Shown piece by piece: positions 1,897-42,468 of a stretch of DNA of 64,000 nucleotides. Numbering within the stretch: position 1 is the first letter of the stretch; each line of letters starts with the position of its first letter. The position numbers were made by a program, and so were the translations under genes. The notes under the pieces are model-generated. The model did not search any database. It saw only the letters and a program-made list of their open reading frames with translations, and was not told the DNA's origin. Source of the DNA: Desulfamplus sp. (GTDB lineage Bacteria > Desulfobacterota > Desulfobacteria > Desulfobacterales > Desulfobacteraceae); assembly GCA_015232465.1 (NCBI GenBank), contig JADFZO010000001.1, positions 1 to 64,000 on the forward strand, in the 5' to 3' direction.

Positions 1897-4425
1897 TTAG
1901 CTCTTCTTTTTCTTTACCAACTCCATACTAAAATCCTCCATCTGATAGATACACAGCCCATCTACATAAAGAAGCCCATCTGCTGTTATCTTTTGGCAGT
2001 TGTTATCTTTATCTTTAATGTGTGCCATAATCTCAATTTTACTGCATGATGGGATAATCTGACCCCTGTAAATCCATTTATGGGTATGTGGGCTTAATAC
2101 TAACTCGTAAAGCAATGGATCATATTTCCAAAGTTTGAGCGAGTAAAACTTGATGAGTTGAAGAAACGACTCTACCCCAAGAGAGCCAGGGCATACTGGG
2201 TCTTGATAAAAGTGGGCTTTAAAAAACCACTCATCAGGATCAACCAATTTTGTCCCCTTTATAAAACCTTTTTGGTATTTGCCCCCATCAAATGAAATCT
2301 TATCAATTGTGTCAACCATACGAATAGCCTTTGCAGCCATACCGTAATTAATAGCTGTGTCAGTATCTTCAATCATATCATCAGGAGTTAAAGGGTGGTG
2401 ATCTTTTAGGTAAAATTTATCGCTACTATTTGATTGTTCTGATTGCGTATCGTGCAGATGAGAGCTTTTTATCCCAGCCTGATTTTTAAGGGCTTGGGCT
2501 GTAAAAAAGCCAAAATTTGTCGAGCCTTTGTAGATGTATTGCCCATCTTTTAGAACCTCCATAAGAAAATTTTGGATAATTAGCCCCCCAGCATGAGATA
2601 CAGATGTCATTTTAGATCGCATGGTTAAGGTTCCAGATTCACGAGTTACTGGCTCAAAAATTTGAGCCTCACCACCAAGATTTCTGAAAAATAGCCTCTC
2701 TTTGCTCTTTAAAGCAGAGCCAACATAAGCTGCAAGCCAACCGCAAGGCTGCAAGGCAATCTCAAGCAAAATGCAAAATGGCAGATAATCTGTGTGAGCT
2801 GCCCTAAAATACCACCCATTGCTTGGCATATCAAATTGAGCCTCTATCCATCCACCACAAACCATCTCCCAAGGTTTTGCATCAGCTTTTATAACTCTAT
2901 CCATAAAAAAGTATGGGGGACCAGGAAGCCTTGCAATCTCTCGTTTTTCATCAAAATCCTTATATTTTTCCCCAAATGCTTTTGATGGGCTACCAATTGC
3001 AAACTCAACTATTTTATCTCTGTCAAATAGCGAAGGAGTTGATAAAAGAGATGCACCAATAACCACTTCAACATCTTGAAAATCGACCACATCTGATGAA
3101 CTATCTTTAGATATTGAGTTGCAAATCTCTTGAACAAAACTTTTTGCCCCTAAATTTAGATCAATCAGATCAATCCCCCGTTTTTTAAAGGCATTTTTAA
3201 GTGAAAGCGATACCATTCCACCCTCCCAAGCTCCCCAATTTATTGAGATAAATCTGCACCTGTCAATATCAATCTCTTTGCTGCTTTTTTTAGAGTTTGC
3301 AAGATGTTGAGCTGTTTTATTTAGCACCTCATTTGCCATTGCATAATCAACCTGACCAACATTGCCATACCTTGCTGCAACTGATGAGAAAAAGAGTACA
3401 AACTTTAGCTTCTCCTTAGCCGTAGCCTTTAAAAGATTCTCCATACCAACGACTTTTGTATCAAAAACTGCATCAAATTGGAATAGAGTTTTATCAACTA
3501 TCAGCTTATCTTCTAAGACTCCAGCACCATGAACAACTCCAGTTATTTTTCCAAAATTTTGTTTTGCATCTTTAAGAGCTTTGTTTAGCTCTTCAAAATC
3601 TCTAATATCAACGCTGTAATATTTAACAAAAGAGCCAGCAGCCTCTATGCGTTTAAGATTTTGGCTTATCTCTCTATTTGAAGATATTTTTTTATAGATT
3701 GCCTGAAGTTCAGAAGGGGTAGGGGCTGATTTAGATTTAAAGATATTTAAAAGGATCGCTTTTTTTATATCAACTTCAGATACTAAGCCATGTAGCCACT
3801 CTGGTTCTGGCTCTCTAAGCAGAGGTGATCTTCCAATAAGTATTATTTTTGGTGAAAATGTAGATGCAAGCTCAACAGCACATTCAGCAGTAACGCCTCT
3901 TGCTCCGCCTGTAATTACAATGACATCATCGCTATTTAACCTGTTATTTAAAGTCTCAAAAGAGGAAAACAAGGGTATGGGGGACTCTTTTAATTGCGGT
4001 ATTATGATACAATTATCTTTTATGCCAATCTCCACATAATCAGATAAGACAAAATTGCCAATAGCTCTTTTAGTCAGCATAAGATAGATAAGGCTCTGCG
4101 ATATTGAGGAGATAGAAAAATCAAAATCATCAATGCTTATAGGCTCAATATCAATTGCTCTGCATAAAACTTGACTCCACTCAAGTGCTGCTGTTTTTAA
4201 AAGTCCTGCAACTGCCCCTTGTAATGGATTATCAACTTTTCCATCTTCAAAACCAAACGCTCCATTAAGAGATGAGAGGCTCACAAAAAAAGCACTATTG
4301 CCTGATATTTTAGCCTTGGCAGCAGAGTCTATAAGATATTTTCCATTTTGTTTTGCAAGAAGAAAGGATTTTTTAACAAAATCTTTTGAGTGGCTGCTAT
4401 CTGTGATTATAACAAGACCAGCCAT
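1897..4425 (-). CDS. PUFA-synthase-like megasynthase, C-terminal part: ketoreductase plus two FabA-like dehydratase domains
   Basis: KR motif VIVITGGARGVTAECAVELAS and YAMAN; DH1-like PPYFFMDRV...HTDYLPFCILLEIALQPCGWLAAYVGSAL; DH2 HFYQDPVCPGSLGVESFLQL. The frame is open upstream to the A10 tract at about 4687; ATG at 4425 lies inside the KR domain. Confidence 0.9.
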   Translation of the reverse strand: MAGLVIITDSSHSKDFVKKSFLLAKQNGKYLIDSAAKAKISGNSAFFVSLSSLNGAFGFEDGKVDNPLQGAVAGLLKTAALEWSQVLCRAIDIEPISIDDFDFSISSISQSLIYLMLTKRAIGNFVLSDYVEIGIKDNCIIIPQLKESPIPLFSSFETLNNRLNSDDVIVITGGARGVTAECAVELASTFSPKIILIGRSPLLREPEPEWLHGLVSEVDIKKAILLNIFKSKSAPTPSELQAIYKKISSNREISQNLKRIEAAGSFVKYYSVDIRDFEELNKALKDAKQNFGKITGVVHGAGVLEDKLIVDKTLFQFDAVFDTKVVGMENLLKATAKEKLKFVLFFSSVAARYGNVGQVDYAMANEVLNKTAQHLANSKKSSKEIDIDRCRFISINWGAWEGGMVSLSLKNAFKKRGIDLIDLNLGAKSFVQEICNSISKDSSSDVVDFQDVEVVIGASLLSTPSLFDRDKIVEFAIGSPSKAFGEKYKDFDEKREIARLPGPPYFFMDRVIKADAKPWEMVCGGWIEAQFDMPSNGWYFRAAHTDYLPFCILLEIALQPCGWLAAYVGSALKSKERLFFRNLGGEAQIFEPVTRESGTLTMRSKMTSVSHAGGLIIQNFLMEVLKDGQYIYKGSTNFGFFTAQALKNQAGIKSSHLHDTQSEQSNSSDKFYLKDHHPLTPDDMIEDTDTAINYGMAAKAIRMVDTIDKISFDGGKYQKGFIKGTKLVDPDEWFFKAHFYQDPVCPGSLGVESFLQLIKFYSLKLWKYDPLLYELVLSPHTHKWIYRGQIIPSCSKIEIMAHIKDKDNNCQKITADGLLYVDGLCIYQMEDFSMELVKKKKS

Positions 4426-4670
4426 ATCAGATAGCTCTTGATTTAAGGCATCATCAATTTTAACTATCTTTGAATCAACCCCATGTTTAGTAAATTGGGA
4501 TTGCAGAGCTATTGCAACATTGTAAGCATAACTACCATCTAAGTTTCCATCTTTATTATCGCACCAATCTGATGATATATAGACCTTTTTATTGCTCTCA
4601 ATGGTTATTAGCTCTGCATCTTTAAAATTAAGAGAATCAATTGGAATCTTTTTAAGAGAGATGACCTGCC

Positions 4671-7600
4671 TTAAAAGTTTTTTTTTTGACAGGAGCTGCT
4701 CTCACAAAGAGATGGCTCTTTTGTTGATGAGACCAAAATTTGCCCGCTCTTTTCAGAGTTATTGCCCATTAGATGAAGTGCAATCTCATCAATTGTCTTT
4801 AGCCGTCCAAGATCATCAGGCGATATTTGTGCTGCTTCTGGCAATTTCTCTTCAAGTTTGGATAGAATCTCAACCCGCTTTATTGAATCAATGCCAAGAT
4901 CAGACTCTATATCCATATCAGGGGTGAGCATCTCAACTGGAAAGCCCGTCAACTCGCTTATGGTCTCAAGTAAAATAGCCATGACTTTGTTGTTTTGGTT
5001 GTTATTTTCGTTGTTGATTAGCTCTTTTTGCTTGGCAATTTGAGTTGTCTCTTTTGGCAAAACGTCAATTTTAGCCTCTGTTCTATTGGCATGATTTTTA
5101 GGAATAAATGTGTTTGTTACTGGATTAGAGGCATTTTTACCATTATTTTTTGAATGCTCAACTATATGTTCAGGTTGAATCCTTGCTTGAGGAGGCTCTT
5201 CAATTCTTAGCTGTTCAACATTGTGAGTATGGTGAAGCTCTACAACAGTTGGGCTTGTGCCAACACGCATCTGATTTGGAATCTCGTGATTTGTTGAAAC
5301 TCTTGAGATTGTTGTTGGCTGCTGATAGTGATGAATATTTTGGTTGTTGTGATTTAGAGATAAGATTGCATTTTCAGCAAAAAAACGGGTCTGCTCCATC
5401 ATTGCTTGCAGTGTTTGGCTTGCTGCTGCTTGAGTCTCAAGAAATTTTTCATGTGCAAGGGCTGTTCGTGTCTGAAGCTCTTGCATTGAATCCATACCCT
5501 TTTGCACCATCTGCATTGCACTAAAAACAAGTGATGGTGGCTGTGAAATATCCCCTTTATTGTTCATGGTAGTTCCTCTTCCTTTTTCCTCTTTTTTGTT
5601 TGGACTATATATTTTTTTTGGCTCAATAATATGAGCCTCTAATTTAGGTTTTAAGTTAGGTTGGTTATCTGATTGCAAATTAGTAGGCGATTGCAAATTA
5701 GTTGATGGGTCAGAGACTAATACTTTTTGAGGCTTAGGCTTTATATTTGCCCCAGTTAAAGCAACTCTCATCATTTTTTTTGCAGGCTCTTTAACGCTAT
5801 CTTCCCACTGATCCAGCATAACTGTAATTCCACAAGCAGCAAGAGAGCAAAGAGTTGAGGCTAAATCGTAAATCGCCCCATTTTTTCCAGCAGATGAGTC
5901 AAAAGCAAAAGATAAGATTTTATTTGAACTCTCAATATTTTTAGACTCTAAAATAGATTTAGTAAGCCCTGTTAAGACAGCCTTAGGTCCAACCTCAATA
6001 AACGCTGTGATGTTTTTCTTTAACATGACCTCAATATTGGACATAAAGCAGACAGGATTTATAAGGTGCTCCCCAAGTATCTTTTTTGCAGCTTCACCAT
6101 CTAATGGGTAATCTTTTCCTGTGGTGTTAGAAAAGACAACTATGTTTGAGCCGTTAGATGGCTTAATCTCAATTGATGATACAATCTCTTTAAAAGGGGC
6201 AACTGCATTTTCAACAAGTTTGCTGTGAAATGCTGCTGCAACAGGCAGTTGAACGCCTCGCACCTTTCTATCTTTGCATATTTTTGATACCCTTTTTATC
6301 TCATCACTTTTGCCAGATAGCACAATCTGATTTGGGCTATTTATATTTGCAACAACAAGATCAAGATTTTCTGCCTTTATAAGCTCTTCTACATCTTCTA
6401 AAGATGCTTTTAGGGCAAACATACTGCCTCTATCTTCGCCATTTAAAGCAGCACCAGCCATAAGTCTGCCTCTTTGAGAGGCTAAATTTAAAAATGTATT
6501 TTCATCTATCCAGTTTGCAGCACAAAGGGCACTTAACTCGCCAAAGCTGTGTCCGCACACTGCATCTGGCTTTATGCCAAATCTTGCAAGAATTTTTACC
6601 ATACCAAGTGTTATAGCACCAATTGCAGGCTGGGCAACATCAGTGCTTCGTAGATTCTCCTCTGCACTCTTTTCATCTTGAGCATAAGGGGGCTGGCTAA
6701 ATATGTAATCTTTTAATTTTACCTTTTTATCATTTAGCCTGTTAAATATCTCTTCTGCCTCTTCAAGTGCCTCAAGAGCCTCTGGAAAGATGGAGATTAA
6801 ATCTCTTGCCATATCAACATATTGGCTACCTTGACCAGGAAATAAAAATCCAACTTTACCCTTATGCTCCCCTGAGCCGTAAAATATCCCTGAAAACTCT
6901 TTATCGCTCTTATCAGATTTGGTTATTTTATTGTGATTGTTCAATGAGTCAATATAATCAATAGCCTTTAAAGCCTTTTTTACGGGATCATCTTTATCAG
7001 TTATCAAGATCAAAAGCCTGTGCTTGTAAGATGATTTAAACTCTTTTCTCAAATTCTGAGACTCCCAAGCGATTTTATGCTCCATTTCGTAGGAGTCTAA
7101 CCCTTCGCCATTTTTTAAGAGTGCAGATGGCTCAATTGACTCCTTAAACTTTAAGATGCTCTTTTTTAAATCCTCTTTTGTGTTGGCACAAAATGGGGCG
7201 ATCTGAACAGTGCCGTCCCAAGATACATGCTCTTTTTTGGGGAGATACTCTTCAAGAAGAGCGTGAAAATTAGAGCCTCCAAATCCAAAAGCACTCACTC
7301 CGCACCTTCTTGGGTGATCTTTAGATTTAACCCAAGGTTTTGCAAGGTGGTTAAGATAAAATGGCGACTTTGTGATCTCAATTTCAGGATCAGGCTCTTC
7401 TGCTTTAAGTGTTGGTGGGATCACCTTGTGATAGAGGCTTAAAACAGCTTTGATAAGACCCGCAGCACCAGCAGCAGCTTTTGCATGACCAACCATTGAC
7501 TTAACAGAGCCAATTGCAGATTTAGAGTTTTTTTCTGAAAATAGAGACTTTAGAGCTGTAATCTCAATCTTATCGCCAACACGGGTTCCAGTTCCATGTG

Positions 7601-8651
7601 CCTCAATAAGCTCAACAGTAGAGGGATCAATTTGAGCCTCTTTGTAAGCTGCCTTTAATGCCCGCAACTGCCCATTAGCGTCAGGAGCGTATATCCCGCC
7701 AGTTTTTCCATCGCTTGATGTGCCAATCCCCTTTATTACAGCATAAATTTTGTCGTTATCTTTTTTTGCATCTGTAAGCCGTTTTAGAACAACCATGCCA
7801 ATACCTTCGCCAAGCACTGTTCCATCAGCATCTTTTGAAAATGGTCTTGCATCGCTTGTGTGAGAGAGCACGCCTGTTTTAGAAAAGCACATGTGCATAA
7901 AAATATCGTTTAAAGTATCAACTCCGCCGCTGATGCACATATCGCTTCTGTGTGCTGCAAGCTCTAAGCAGGCTGTATGGATAGCACTTAGCGAGCTTGC
8001 ACAGGCAGCATCAACAACTGTATTTGTGCCGCCAAGATTTAGGCGATTTGCAATTCTGCCTGCAACCACATTTCCAAGAAGTCCGGGAAATGAGTTTTCC
8101 TGCCATTTAGGCAGACCTTCAGAGATTCTTGCAACTATCTCATCACTCTTTTTACCAGTTATTCCAGACTCGTAAAGAGCCTTTTTCCATAATGGGTGGT
8201 AAAGGCGTGCTCCAAGCGGAATCACAAGCTCTTGAGTTCCAGTAACCCCTAAAATTACACCAGTTCTTAAATGGTTAGATGAAGATGAGTTAGAGGGTGG
8301 GTAACCAGCATCAACAAGAGCCATCTCAGCAACCATAAGAGCCAAAAGTTGAGATGTATCTGTTGCCTCAAGGTTGTTTGGGGGAAATCCATATTTTGCT
8401 GGATCAAAGTTGATTTTAGGGAGAAATCCGCCTCGTTTGCAGTAGGTGTAGTCTGGTGTGGCTGGATTGGAATCAAAGTAATCTGCAAGGGACCAGTGGC
8501 TCTCTTCAGGAATGGGGGTAATGGCATCTTTGCCATTAAAGATTAAACGCCAGTATGCTTTGTTGCCGTTTGAGGCTGGAAAAATAGCACCCATACCAAT
8601 AATGGCTATATCCATAGGCTGACCAGAAAAAGAGTTGTTTAGATTTCGCAC
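4671..8651 (-). CDS. PUFA-synthase-like megasynthase, N-terminal part: KS-AT-ACP (PfaA-like)
   Basis: KS: DAACASSLSAIH, EAHGTGTRVGD, GSVKSMVGHAKAAAG; AT: LFPGQGSQYVDMA, GHSFGELSAL; coiled linker; one ACP with LGIDSIKRVEIL typical of PUFA synthases. Confidence 0.95.
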   Translation of the reverse strand: MRNLNNSFSGQPMDIAIIGMGAIFPASNGNKAYWRLIFNGKDAITPIPEESHWSLADYFDSNPATPDYTYCKRGGFLPKINFDPAKYGFPPNNLEATDTSQLLALMVAEMALVDAGYPPSNSSSSNHLRTGVILGVTGTQELVIPLGARLYHPLWKKALYESGITGKKSDEIVARISEGLPKWQENSFPGLLGNVVAGRIANRLNLGGTNTVVDAACASSLSAIHTACLELAAHRSDMCISGGVDTLNDIFMHMCFSKTGVLSHTSDARPFSKDADGTVLGEGIGMVVLKRLTDAKKDNDKIYAVIKGIGTSSDGKTGGIYAPDANGQLRALKAAYKEAQIDPSTVELIEAHGTGTRVGDKIEITALKSLFSEKNSKSAIGSVKSMVGHAKAAAGAAGLIKAVLSLYHKVIPPTLKAEEPDPEIEITKSPFYLNHLAKPWVKSKDHPRRCGVSAFGFGGSNFHALLEEYLPKKEHVSWDGTVQIAPFCANTKEDLKKSILKFKESIEPSALLKNGEGLDSYEMEHKIAWESQNLRKEFKSSYKHRLLILITDKDDPVKKALKAIDYIDSLNNHNKITKSDKSDKEFSGIFYGSGEHKGKVGFLFPGQGSQYVDMARDLISIFPEALEALEEAEEIFNRLNDKKVKLKDYIFSQPPYAQDEKSAEENLRSTDVAQPAIGAITLGMVKILARFGIKPDAVCGHSFGELSALCAANWIDENTFLNLASQRGRLMAGAALNGEDRGSMFALKASLEDVEELIKAENLDLVVANINSPNQIVLSGKSDEIKRVSKICKDRKVRGVQLPVAAAFHSKLVENAVAPFKEIVSSIEIKPSNGSNIVVFSNTTGKDYPLDGEAAKKILGEHLINPVCFMSNIEVMLKKNITAFIEVGPKAVLTGLTKSILESKNIESSNKILSFAFDSSAGKNGAIYDLASTLCSLAACGITVMLDQWEDSVKEPAKKMMRVALTGANIKPKPQKVLVSDPSTNLQSPTNLQSDNQPNLKPKLEAHIIEPKKIYSPNKKEEKGRGTTMNNKGDISQPPSLVFSAMQMVQKGMDSMQELQTRTALAHEKFLETQAAASQTLQAMMEQTRFFAENAILSLNHNNQNIHHYQQPTTISRVSTNHEIPNQMRVGTSPTVVELHHTHNVEQLRIEEPPQARIQPEHIVEHSKNNGKNASNPVTNTFIPKNHANRTEAKIDVLPKETTQIAKQKELINNENNNQNNKVMAILLETISELTGFPVEMLTPDMDIESDLGIDSIKRVEILSKLEEKLPEAAQISPDDLGRLKTIDEIALHLMGNNSEKSGQILVSSTKEPSLCESSSCQKKNF
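4678..4687 (-). other. A10 homopolymer containing an in-frame A-AAA-AAC slippery heptamer at the ORF junction
   Basis: Minus strand ...TGT CAA AAA AAA AAC TTT TAA; a -1 shift gives ...AAA CTT TTA AGG CAG GTC... which reads open into the KR ORF. Confidence 0.8.
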
Positions 8652-21665: not shown

Positions 21666-21704
21666 AGCACCCCTGATGTAAAAGTCAGGGGTGCTTTTTT
21701 TTTT
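21666..21704 (+). terminator. Rho-independent terminator of csp
   Basis: AGCACCCCTGA / TCAGGGGTGCT 11-bp stem plus T-run. Confidence 0.93.
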
Positions 21705-21872
21705 CTTTTTTAAAATAGATTTCACTTCAAAATATGATAAAAAATTCATCTTTCTTATTTATACTTTATCAAGTCCATGCTACATTAAAAGATAATATAT
21801 GAAAAAATTTTAAGATAAATAAAATATAAAAATAGAGCAAAATAACAATCAAAAGAGATAAAAAGAGTCCTA

Positions 21873-38388: not shown

Positions 38389-40065
38389 ATGTTTAAAGGC
38401 TACTGGCAGAGTGATAAAAGCAACTATTTTGATAATCAAACCAACACAGATATAATGGAGGCTCTTTTTCATATTCACGAACCAATCTATTTGGTTAGCA
38501 ATAGCCAAATAGATAGATGGGTCTGGGGTGGAAGGGCATTTATAGGGTATGATAAAGAGAATCTAAATAAAGAGGCTCTTTTAAAACAGGGTGATGGTAA
38601 ATATTTAAAGATTAAAGCATATATCCCGCAGCTTCCCCTTGAAAATTTAGGAGACACTCAATTTAAAGCTCGCCATCAACTAAAATACCCCTACATTGCT
38701 GGAGCTATGGCAAATGGAATCACATCTGTTGAGATGGTTGAATCTATGGCTCAAAATGGCATGATTGGCTTTTTTGGTGCTGGAGGATTATCTATTTCAG
38801 AGGTTGAAAAGGCTATAATCTATCTAAAAAATAGTGTTAAAGTTTTTGGATTTAACTTTATCCACTCACTTGGCGATCCTGAATTTGAGATGGCTCTTGC
38901 TAAATTATACATAAAACATGAGGTTCACAAAATTAGTGCTGCTGCATTTATGAGAATAACCCTTTCGCTTGTTTACTATCGGGTTAAAGGGATTCATCAA
39001 AATATCGAGGGAAACATTGTAACCCCAAATCAGATAGTTGCCAAAGTCTCAAGGGTGGAAGTTGCACGACAATTTTTCTCACCTCCCCCGCAAAAACTTG
39101 TTGCAGAGCTTTTAAATCAAGGGCTTATAACGCAAAGTGAGGCAGAGCTTTCAGCCCATATTCCAATGGCACAAGATTTAACAGCAGAGGCAGATTCAGG
39201 TGGACACACAGACAATCGCCCTGCAATATCGTTGTGGCCCACTATGATTTTATTAAAAGATGAGTTTAATCAAAAATTTAACTATGCCACGCCTTTATGC
39301 GTAGGTTTTGCTGGTGGCATCTCAACACCAGAATCAGTTGCAGCAGCTTTTCAGATGGGTGCTGGATATGTTCTGACTGGCTCTATAAATCAGTCTTGCA
39401 TTGAGGCTGGAACTTCAGATAGCGTAAAGCAGCTTCTTGCACAGGTTGAGCAGGCTGATGTTGCAATGGCTCCTGCTGCTGATATGTTTGAGATTGGGGC
39501 ACGGGTTCAGGTGCTAAAGCGGGGCACTCTGTTTGCTGTTAGGGCTGAAAAGCTCTACCAGATTTATAAAAATTATAATTCTTTTGAAGATGTGCCTGAA
39601 AAGTTGCAAAAAGAGATTGAGGATAAATATCTTCAAGCCCCTTTTTATCAAAAATGGGAAGAGACCAAAGAGTTTTTTAAAATACGAAACATAAAAGAGG
39701 TTGAGCGTGCAGAGGTTGACCCTCACCACAAAATGGCTTTGGTATTTCGATCATATCTTGGATTATCATCACGCTGGTCAATTGTTGGGGAGACTAACCG
39801 AGCTATGGATTATCAAATATGGTGTGGTCCAGCAATGGGAGCTTTTAACCAATGGGTAAAGGGGAGTTATTTAGAAAAGAGCGAAAATCGGCGTGTTGCA
39901 GATATTGCACTAAATCTGCTTTTGGGGGCATCAATCTCTACAAGATTGGGCTGGCTAAGAGCACAAGGGGTTGGGATTTACGAAGTTGGTGGTAAAAATT
40001 TTAAACCATTTAAACCAGTAGATAGAGCAACTATTTTAAAGCTCGTCTCACAAAATAGGGGCTAA
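38389..40065 (+). CDS. pfaD: PfaD-family trans-acting enoyl reductase (nitronate monooxygenase-like flavoprotein)
   Basis: YIAGAMANGITSVEMVESMAQNGMIGFFGAGG, TAEADSGGHTDNRP, GTSDSVKQLLAQVEQADVAMAPAADMFEIGARVQVLKRGTLFAVRAEKLYQIY. Confidence 0.92.
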   Translation: MFKGYWQSDKSNYFDNQTNTDIMEALFHIHEPIYLVSNSQIDRWVWGGRAFIGYDKENLNKEALLKQGDGKYLKIKAYIPQLPLENLGDTQFKARHQLKYPYIAGAMANGITSVEMVESMAQNGMIGFFGAGGLSISEVEKAIIYLKNSVKVFGFNFIHSLGDPEFEMALAKLYIKHEVHKISAAAFMRITLSLVYYRVKGIHQNIEGNIVTPNQIVAKVSRVEVARQFFSPPPQKLVAELLNQGLITQSEAELSAHIPMAQDLTAEADSGGHTDNRPAISLWPTMILLKDEFNQKFNYATPLCVGFAGGISTPESVAAAFQMGAGYVLTGSINQSCIEAGTSDSVKQLLAQVEQADVAMAPAADMFEIGARVQVLKRGTLFAVRAEKLYQIYKNYNSFEDVPEKLQKEIEDKYLQAPFYQKWEETKEFFKIRNIKEVERAEVDPHHKMALVFRSYLGLSSRWSIVGETNRAMDYQIWCGPAMGAFNQWVKGSYLEKSENRRVADIALNLLLGASISTRLGWLRAQGVGIYEVGGKNFKPFKPVDRATILKLVSQNRG

Positions 40066-40622: not shown

Positions 40623-41072
40623 GTGTTTTTTATGGTCAGCTCTTGTTGCAAAAGTGAAAAAGAGAAAATAGAAAAGATAGAAAATAAAATTGGTGTTTAT
40701 GAAATCTATGTCAAAGACCATTTTTCAGCAGCACATGCACTAAATGGCTATGATGGAAACTGCTCAAAAATACATGGGCATAACTGGATAATAGAGACCT
40801 TTGTTCAGTGCAGGCAGCTAAATGATATTGGCATTGGTATTGACTTTAGAGATGTTAAAAATTCAGTGAAAAATATTCTTAAAAAAGTTGACCATACCCA
40901 TCTAAATGAACTTGATGCTTTTAAAGAGATAAATCCAACATCAGAAAATATTGCCAAATTTTTATATAAAGAGCTTCAAACGCATCTTAACAGCCAATTT
41001 ATAAAGGTCTCTAAAGTTAAGGTATCTGAAACTCCAGGGTGTGGCTCAACCTATTGGGAGGAGTATCTTTAA
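40623..41072 (+). CDS. queD: 6-carboxytetrahydropterin synthase (start GTG 40623 or ATG 40632)
   Basis: FSAAHAL...CSKIHGHNWIIE, DFRDVK, DHTHLNEL, ETPGCGSTYW. Confidence 0.93.
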   Translation: MFFMVSSCCKSEKEKIEKIENKIGVYEIYVKDHFSAAHALNGYDGNCSKIHGHNWIIETFVQCRQLNDIGIGIDFRDVKNSVKNILKKVDHTHLNELDAFKEINPTSENIAKFLYKELQTHLNSQFIKVSKVKVSETPGCGSTYWEEYL

Positions 41073-41078
41073 AGAGTA

Positions 41079-41765
41079 ATGTCATTAAATCTATGTGAAA
41101 TATTTTATAGCATTCAAGGCGAATCAACATTTGCAGGATTGCCATGCGCATTTATAAGGCTTGCTGGTTGCAATTTAAATTGCAGTTGGTGCGACACCAT
41201 TTATGCAAGAGATGATATTGGTCTATCTGTTGAGATTGATGAGATAATCAGCAAAATTGAGGTGTTTGACTCTAAATTGGTTGAGATAACAGGAGGCGAG
41301 CCTTTGATGCAAAAAGAGACTCCAATTTTGATTGAGCAGCTTTTAAATATTGGTTATCAGGTGCTTGTTGAGACAAATGGCTCTATCAATATTAACACTA
41401 TTAGCAATAGATGCGTTAGGGTTGTTGATATAAAATGTCCATCAAGCAATGAGTCTGATAAAAATCTTCTCACCAATATTGATATGCTAACGGATCAAGA
41501 TGAGATAAAATTTGTGGTTGCAGATAAAAAAGATTATGAGTTTGCAAAAGAGATAATTTATGAGACAAATTTAAAAAAAATCAGCCCATCAAAGATTCAC
41601 ATTTCACCAGTAGGATTGGGTAGTAACTACAATAAATCTCTTTATAATTTAGAGCTACTCTCTCTTGAAGAGCTTGCTGCATTGATGGTTAAAGATAAAA
41701 TTGGGGCAAGGTTATCGCTTCAGATGCACAAAATAGTATGGAATCCTGAGAAAAGAGGAGTTTAA
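41079..41765 (+). CDS. queE: 7-carboxy-7-deazaguanine synthase
   Basis: [41 protein letters not shown]. Confidence 0.95.
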
Positions 41766-41766
41766 G

Positions 41767-42468
41767 ATGAGAAGTGTCAAAAAAAGGGCGGTTGTTCTAT
41801 CAAGTGGGGGAATTGACTCAACAACTGCAATGGCAATCGCAAAATTCGAGGGTTTTGATATTTACAGTTTAAGTTTTAGGTATGGTCAGCGTCATTATAC
41901 TGAACTTGTTGCTGCCCAAAAGGTTGCAGAGTTTTTCAGTGTCAAAAAGCATCTTATTGTCAATATTGATCTTAGAAGTTTTGGTGGGTCAGCTTTGACA
42001 GACTTGATTGATGTGCCAAAGCACCAAAGCGTTGATGAGTTATCTAAAGAGGAGATACCAATAACCTACGTGCCAGCCAGAAATACCATCTTTTTATCTT
42101 ATGCAGTTGCGTGGGCTGAGGTTGTAAAGGCTGAAAATATATTTATTGGCGTTACTGCGGTTGATTACAGCGGATACCCAGATTGCCGCCCTGAGTATAT
42201 TGCAGCTTATGAGAAGATGGCAAATCTTGCCACAAAAACAGGCGTTACTGGAGAGGTTCTCCTTAAAATTAGAACGCCGTTAATAGATATGTCAAAATCT
42301 GAAATCATACTAAAAGGGGCGGAACTTGGGGTTGACTACTCTCTAACACTTAGCTGCTACGATCCTGATACTCAAGGCAGGTCATGTGGACGGTGCGACA
42401 GTTGTCTTCATCGAATAAAAGGTTTTAAAGATGCTGGTATGGCTGATCCCACCATCTACTACTACTAA
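41767..42468 (+). CDS. queC: 7-cyano-7-deazaguanine synthase
   Basis: [28 protein letters not shown]-terminal CGRCDSC. Confidence 0.96.

Follow-up and report, generated by a model that had tools for sequence, protein, structure and literature searches.

Only a few bacterial genes are documented as using programmed slippage, among them dnaX, genes of type III and type VI secretion, and IS elements. In Citrobacter rodentium, tssM1 carries a run of 11 A's (A11) ahead of a premature stop; transcripts with added A's give ∼20–25% full-length protein, and both forms are needed (PMC4256274). In tssM3 of Yersinia pseudotuberculosis, the default product is reversed relative to tssM1 (PMC4256274). Polymerase slippage at an A9 run (nine T's in the template) of Thermus thermophilus dnaX yields a short and a full-length protein (PMC5009743). 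In the Roseiflexus IS630 element, slippage is stimulated by a nascent-RNA stem-loop with a four-base loop, which directly adjoins the slippery run on its 5′ side (PMC5009743). Escherichia coli dnaX makes its short and long products by −1 frameshifting, which needs an upstream Shine–Dalgarno (SD)-like element and a downstream stem-loop and is fixed in direction.

The gene described here encodes a PfaA-like megasynthase and is divided by a run of ten A's, which we argue is likely to be a conserved programmed slippage site. The tssM genes are its closest precedent and follow the same logic, with short and long forms and a reversible default. However, tssM encodes a secretion-system membrane protein and the case rests on two species, whereas the PfaA-like gene encodes a lipid megasynthase, has the tract in ∼55 species with four frame changes, and is without experiment. 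T. thermophilus dnaX likewise gives two products from one gene, but that gene encodes a clamp-loader subunit and its default frame is continuous; among PfaA-like orthologs, both continuous and split arrangements occur. The likeness to E. coli dnaX lies in an A-rich slippery sequence and in the short and long products proposed. With the PfaA family (TIGR02813; PMC3098273), the gene shares the KS-AT-ACP-KR order, the matching of both open reading frames (ORFs) to one model, and a PfaD homolog in the genome; it differs in having one or two ACPs, C-terminal FabA-like dehydratase domains, and the homopolymer split. No report of recoding in PfaA or in a polyketide or fatty-acid megasynthase was found in the open literature searched, and the large surveys and reviews of recoding that were consulted list no such synthase, apart from a polyketide cyclase cluster.

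The window, meaning the whole 64,000-nt stretch of DNA that was analyzed, belongs to a Desulfamplus genome (G000), an incomplete metagenome-assembled genome (MAG) of 3.02 Mb in 147 contigs that is 85.9% complete. Its features at the split are as follows.

4671–8651, minus strand: ORF1, the KS-AT-ACP half of the PfaA-like megasynthase, ending CQKKNF-stop and matching TIGR02813 model positions 5–1289
4770–4973, minus strand: ACP (PP-binding) domain, from domain search, the final domain before the tract
4678–4687, minus strand: A10 tract (T10 on the plus strand), the proposed slippage site
4671–4673, minus strand: ORF1 stop codon TAA, two codons past the tract, which terminates the short product
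4671–4701, minus strand: shift window, in which the ORF1 and ORF2 frames are both open
1897–4701, minus strand: ORF2, stop to stop in the −1 frame, the KR-DH-DH half, without ATG, GTG, or TTG between the tract and 4425
3950–4677, minus strand: N-terminal (structural) KR subdomain, beginning right after the tract, with RQ at codons 3–4 and a first beta strand at residues 2–12 (predicted)
4423–4425, minus strand: first ATG in ORF2, midway through the structural subdomain of the KR and implausible as a natural start

The 3′ end of ORF1 reads ...TGT CAA AAA AAA AAC TTT TAA, with exactly ten A's at 4687–4678. The −1 frame is open for 934 codons, from 4701 to the stop at 1897, and reads KKKLLRQVISLKKIPIDSLNF.... 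The initial annotation had proposed a split at the A10 run with the −1 frame open into the KR-DH-DH ORF and no ATG before 4425; all of this held, and GTG and TTG are absent there as well. KS, AT, and one ACP lie in ORF1, and KR and FabA-like dehydratase stretches lie in ORF2. Alone, ORF1 scores 954.7 bits against TIGR02813 (PfaA, NCBIfam) and ORF2, which covers model positions 1851–2255, scores 290.3 bits, these being different parts of a model whose curated cut-off is 1010.1; a fused ortholog, L059, matches the whole model at 1344.1 bits. Since the two ORFs match parts of one model that an uninterrupted relative matches whole, the window gene is one PfaA-like lipid megasynthase interrupted at the A10 run. 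Its lipid product is not identified. The window gene has one ACP motif, and most relatives have two. As a separate point of architecture, the Desulfamplus genes (1897–4425 in the window) lack ∼330 residues between the KR and the C-terminal dehydratase that are present in Desulfobacter and in fused orthologs, as seen in alignment against L046, L051, and L059.

Isolated A10 runs are sparse in this genome. A pattern search found 17 isolated A10 runs in the 3.0-Mb assembly, and none of the 15 examined outside the window splits an ORF. The other isolated A10/T10 inside the window, at 21694–21705, is the intergenic tail of a terminator-like hairpin. Across eight genomes, the same kind of search gives 17–55 exact A10 runs per genome. 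Recurrence of the A10 split at the same site among relatives puts it far outside chance expectation. In all, the gene is split at an A-run in 21 species: six of Desulfamplus, 13 of Desulfobacter, and two other MAGs. The gene was located in six Desulfamplus species and is split in all of them (6/6), five at A10 and one at A8; four species besides that of the window share its A10 split in the form [CG]AA AAA AAA AAC TNY TAA. The lone exception in the genus is D. magnetovallimortis (L042:8611–8660), in which the A8 run leaves the ORFs in a +1 rather than a −1 relation and the ORF1 stop lies 12 codons after the run. The 13 Desulfobacter species, which include D. vibrioformis DSM 8776, D. latus AcRS2, and several single-contig genomes, have their split at A9 or A10, after which the sequence reads CTT C.. 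ATG AC; in the two other MAGs the runs at the split are A11 and A10. A −1 shift is needed in 20 of the 21 split genes, and 20 of 21 have A9–A11 at the junction, the exception being the A8 of D. magnetovallimortis. The same out-of-frame phase is found in all 13 core Desulfobacter and all five A10 Desulfamplus. In three lineages a substitution lengthened the run from A9 to A10 and left the phase unchanged (in some Desulfobacter, CCT to ACA). The sixth codon after the tract is a stop in all 14 split Desulfobacter-type genes and in two fused relatives. This stop overlaps the minority codons ATA/GTA/TTA, and 20% of third positions in the segment are equally invariant (12 species tested), so a conserved short-frame stop in Desulfobacter remains a possibility that is suggested and no more.

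The run is also present where the gene is not split. It occurs as A9–A12 in the ACP-KR linker of 34 orthologs that have one uninterrupted ORF of ∼2500–2800 codons, in Desulfobacula, Desulfotignum, Desulfospira, Desulfocicer, and deep Desulfobacter. In Desulfobacula, Desulfotignum, Desulfospira, and Desulfobacter it mostly starts 157–162 nt past the ACP serine motif, in a linker that is otherwise very variable and partly 50–57% G+C. The protein around the run differs (KKKTS, EKKNAS, VKKNPF, QKKTS, KKKALRQ), whereas the run length stays at 9–12, and among orthologs the run begins at all three codon positions. On the KR-DH tree there are four changes between fused and split (in Desulfamplus, Desulfobacter, MAG.124, and SMBSF44) and five changes in the presence of a run of 9 or more; some fused relatives have lost the run (Desulfobacterium, Desulforapulum, and two Desulfobacula-like MAGs). 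One pair within a genus differs in phase, G012 being fused with A12 and G022 split with A11. Because the run is conserved in fused and split orthologs alike while its phase changes on the tree, what is kept is the homopolymer and not the frame across it. The comparison of orthologs thus supports an A-run that is older than the split. The claim of an in-frame A-AAA-AAC slippery site, made in the initial annotation, therefore holds only in part: the heptamer is present, but the conserved element is a run found in all three phases. Close relatives share both the split and the run, and distant ones are uninterrupted but keep the run; the pattern that would have refuted the proposal, close relatives with a single uninterrupted ORF and no A-run, was not met. 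Three Desulfotignum orthologs (L102, L098, and L115) share a second run of 9–11 A's, located at a single position in the KR-DH part, possibly a further slippage site.

Could the run simply be a consequence of the encoded lysines? At the first KK motif after the ACP, the codons in 47 species are 119 AAA to 1 AAG, and the sole AAG belongs to a species in which the run has been lost. By comparison, all 27 of the other conserved lysine columns in the KS-ACP part contain AAG, at 2–61% (median 22%). Runs of nine or more A's have a density of 6.06 per kb in the linkers versus 0.086 per kb elsewhere in the same genes, a 71-fold difference, and the other such runs in these genes are common to at most three species. 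Two cautions apply. The density and codon set was drawn from a clade that mostly carries the tract. Moreover, when codons were resampled within each species given the amino acids, single species were not significant (P mostly 0.05–0.7), because AAA is the usual lysine codon. The statistical case draws its strength from the number of species, which are not entirely independent of one another. Taken over these many species, the codon and density comparisons support conservation of the run beyond protein constraint.

ORF2 has no evident start of its own. The first ATG, GTG, or TTG in the −1 frame of the window gene lies at 4425, the 84th codon past the run. Such codons are missing from the first 84–132 codons of about ten of the 21 split species, those other than the window's own species lacking them for 98–132 codons or more. 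Across the 21 split species we found no start at a conserved position with an SD-like site, although some Desulfobacter species have a GTG near codon 17–27 of ORF2. In most Desulfobacter, a T joined to the first two A's of the tract makes a TAA that closes the ORF2 frame, leaving the tract as its only point of entry. A search for an internal promoter for ORF2 gave one weak sigma-70-like match, fewer than in shuffles. ORF2 nonetheless looks translated. It runs for 900–1200 codons without a stop and at low dN/dS. Codons 3–4 past the tract, R and Q, are invariant in 15 orthologs, each from its own species, both split and fused. In a structure model (mean pLDDT 81.5), residues 2–12 are predicted to form a beta strand of the KR structural subdomain, and the best matches of the model among solved structures are complete two-subdomain PKS ketoreductases; starting at the first ATG is predicted to cost the structural subdomain four strands and helices. 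The first 105 codons of ORF2 in Desulfobacter have a dN/dS of 0.10–0.33, including in species without any start codon there. The constraint is weaker at the start of Desulfamplus ORF2 (dN/dS 0.24–0.64), with sequences near saturation. What the analysis shows directly is the tract, its conservation, its phase changes, the lack of a start codon, and a constraint on ORF2 of the kind that translation leaves, reaching up to the tract. That ORF2 is translated from the tract onward without its own start is supported by dN/dS, the invariant RQ, and the model, in the absence of protein data.

In the reading we prefer, a conserved site of programmed slippage, most likely by RNA polymerase, lies at the A10 run and yields a short and a full-length product. 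We regard this as likely, but slippage itself, its level, its agent, and the need for both products are inferred, without RNA or protein data. RNA polymerase, or less likely the ribosome, would slip on the A9–A12 tract in a fraction of transcripts and so change the frame. In Desulfamplus and Desulfobacter, the unslipped message would give the short KS-AT-ACP protein. In split species of the −1 phase, a message slipped by a net +1 or −2 nucleotides would give the full KS-AT-ACP-KR-DH-DH synthase. Fused relatives would do the reverse: the default would be the full-length protein, and slippage would give a short one that extends a few residues beyond KS-AT-ACP, since in these species stops follow the tract in both other frames. 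The −1-frame stop lies at a median of five codons after the tract; such stops are no closer than synonymous resampling gives, and we did not use their position as evidence. The default product would then flip between lineages. That one locus makes both a short KS-AT-ACP protein and a full-length fusion, as the initial annotation had inferred, is strongly supported by comparison but not shown experimentally.

RNA polymerase is favored as the agent by the run length of 9–12, by the freedom of the phase, and by the one species in which the shift must go the other way. The run length fits the reported behavior of bacterial RNA polymerase, for which efficient slippage in vivo is described at a run of nine A's or T's (PMC5009743). 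D. magnetovallimortis counts against this reading, since its A8 falls short of the lengths at which strong slippage is known and its phase differs. In Desulfobacter, a six-pair hairpin, GGTTTC-CAAA-GAAACC, ends 2–3 nt before the A9 tract and resembles the stem-loop of Roseiflexus IS630. The slippery run there, however, is a T5C5 heteropolymer with loss of one C, whereas the PfaA-like gene has an A-run and a hairpin in part of the clade only. Three pairs of the Desulfobacter hairpin show base changes on both sides, 87.5% of cells are paired, and the covariation score is 0.301, compared with 0.136 for shuffled sequence and 0.273 or less when the hairpin is slid. The fused relatives G033 and G104 have the same fold at the same place with a different sequence. 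An upstream hairpin is absent from Desulfamplus and Desulfobacula.

Among the alternatives, programmed −1 ribosomal frameshifting on an A-AAA-AAC/A heptamer, as in E. coli dnaX, would make the same two products. It is favored by the in-frame A_AAA_AAC of five Desulfamplus species and A_AAA_AAA of Desulfobacter, and by the −1 shift that all but one of the split genes need. Even so, it is unlikely. Neither stimulator of E. coli dnaX was found at the PfaA-like junction, there being no SD-like element 8–14 nt upstream and no downstream structure beyond that in shuffles; the sole structure found sits upstream of the tract. Seven A's suffice for the heptamer, yet the run stays at 9–12. Nor is the direction constant, and it is the occurrence of the run in three phases, together with the +1 relation in D. 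magnetovallimortis, that favors transcriptional slippage over a dnaX-like −1 ribosomal shift, the initial annotation having named both. A different possibility is that the AAA codons follow from a KK(K/N) motif kept for the protein as a basic linker, the A-run being a by-product of codon usage. Indeed, AAA makes up ∼79% of lysine codons in these genes (AAG ∼21% elsewhere), so KKKT often yields A10, and alternative-frame stops are not enriched. We nevertheless give this explanation very little weight: the near absence of AAG at the motif is not matched at the 27 other lysine columns, the residues vary (KKKT, EKKN, VKKN, QKKT, KKKA) while the run length does not, and the out-of-frame orthologs are left unexplained.

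The tract could also be a contingency locus at which replication slippage toggles the synthase on and off between cells. Long homopolymers do mutate easily, and the G012/G022 pair and the four frame changes on the tree are phase shifts over time. But 13 of 13 Desulfobacter and 5 of 5 A10 Desulfamplus share one off phase, where random sampling would give some on states (one genome per species was available, without reads), and growth of the run by substitution in three lineages kept the phase; phase variation is therefore very unlikely. An error of sequencing or assembly might be suspected, or an indel that recently turned the gene into a pseudogene, since homopolymers are error-prone and the window comes from an incomplete MAG. 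This is very hard to credit: independently assembled genomes of 18 congeners, some of them single-contig and some recorded under strain names, show the same phase, and ORF2 is long, free of stops, and under constraint. The congeners were the ground for rejecting it. All three alternatives raised in the initial annotation, namely sequencing error, an inactivating indel, and a phase-variable tract, are disfavored by the single out-of-frame phase that 13 Desulfobacter and five Desulfamplus species share. Finally, the gene might have been split into two subunits, with ORF2 translated from its own start. In Psychroflexus, pfaA1 (KS-AT-ACP5) and pfaA2 (KR) are separate genes (PMC3098273), and the GTG of some Desulfobacter could serve. 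This too is very improbable, given the roughly ten split species without a start over 84–132 codons, the lack of a conserved SD-like start, and the KR strands and helices that a first-ATG start would delete; it would also leave the run in fused orthologs unexplained.

If programmed slippage is correct, genome annotations that treat these synthases as broken, or as pairs of genes, are mistaken, and one could test a control of domain ratio in an iterative megasynthase. With orthologs of both kinds, split and continuous, that carry matched tracts, the retention of recoding sites and flips in the default frame could be tested directly. A bolder reading, toward which the evidence tips only slightly, is that a family-wide poly-A switch sets the ratio of a KS-AT-ACP extending module without reduction domains to the full synthase. 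On this reading, the homopolymer itself would be selected, the default would have flipped at least four times with both products persisting, and the gene would be the first recoded polyketide or fatty-acid megasynthase. If so, these orthologs would form a natural evolutionary series for frame toggling. That the ratio of condensing to reducing units matters, as may be supposed by analogy with the tau and gamma forms of dnaX, is a guess, and a role for the short protein is not established.

Two observations concern the wider locus. A PfaD homolog (TIGR02814, 610.7 bits) lies at 38389–40065 on the plus strand, ∼30 kb from pfaA; in another Desulfamplus genome, G003 (L043), and in most relatives, a PfaD-like ORF lies directly upstream of pfaA, unlike in the window genome. 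At 40623–42468, also on the plus strand, three consecutive genes resemble queD, queE, and queC of 7-deazaguanine synthesis, judging from their translations only.
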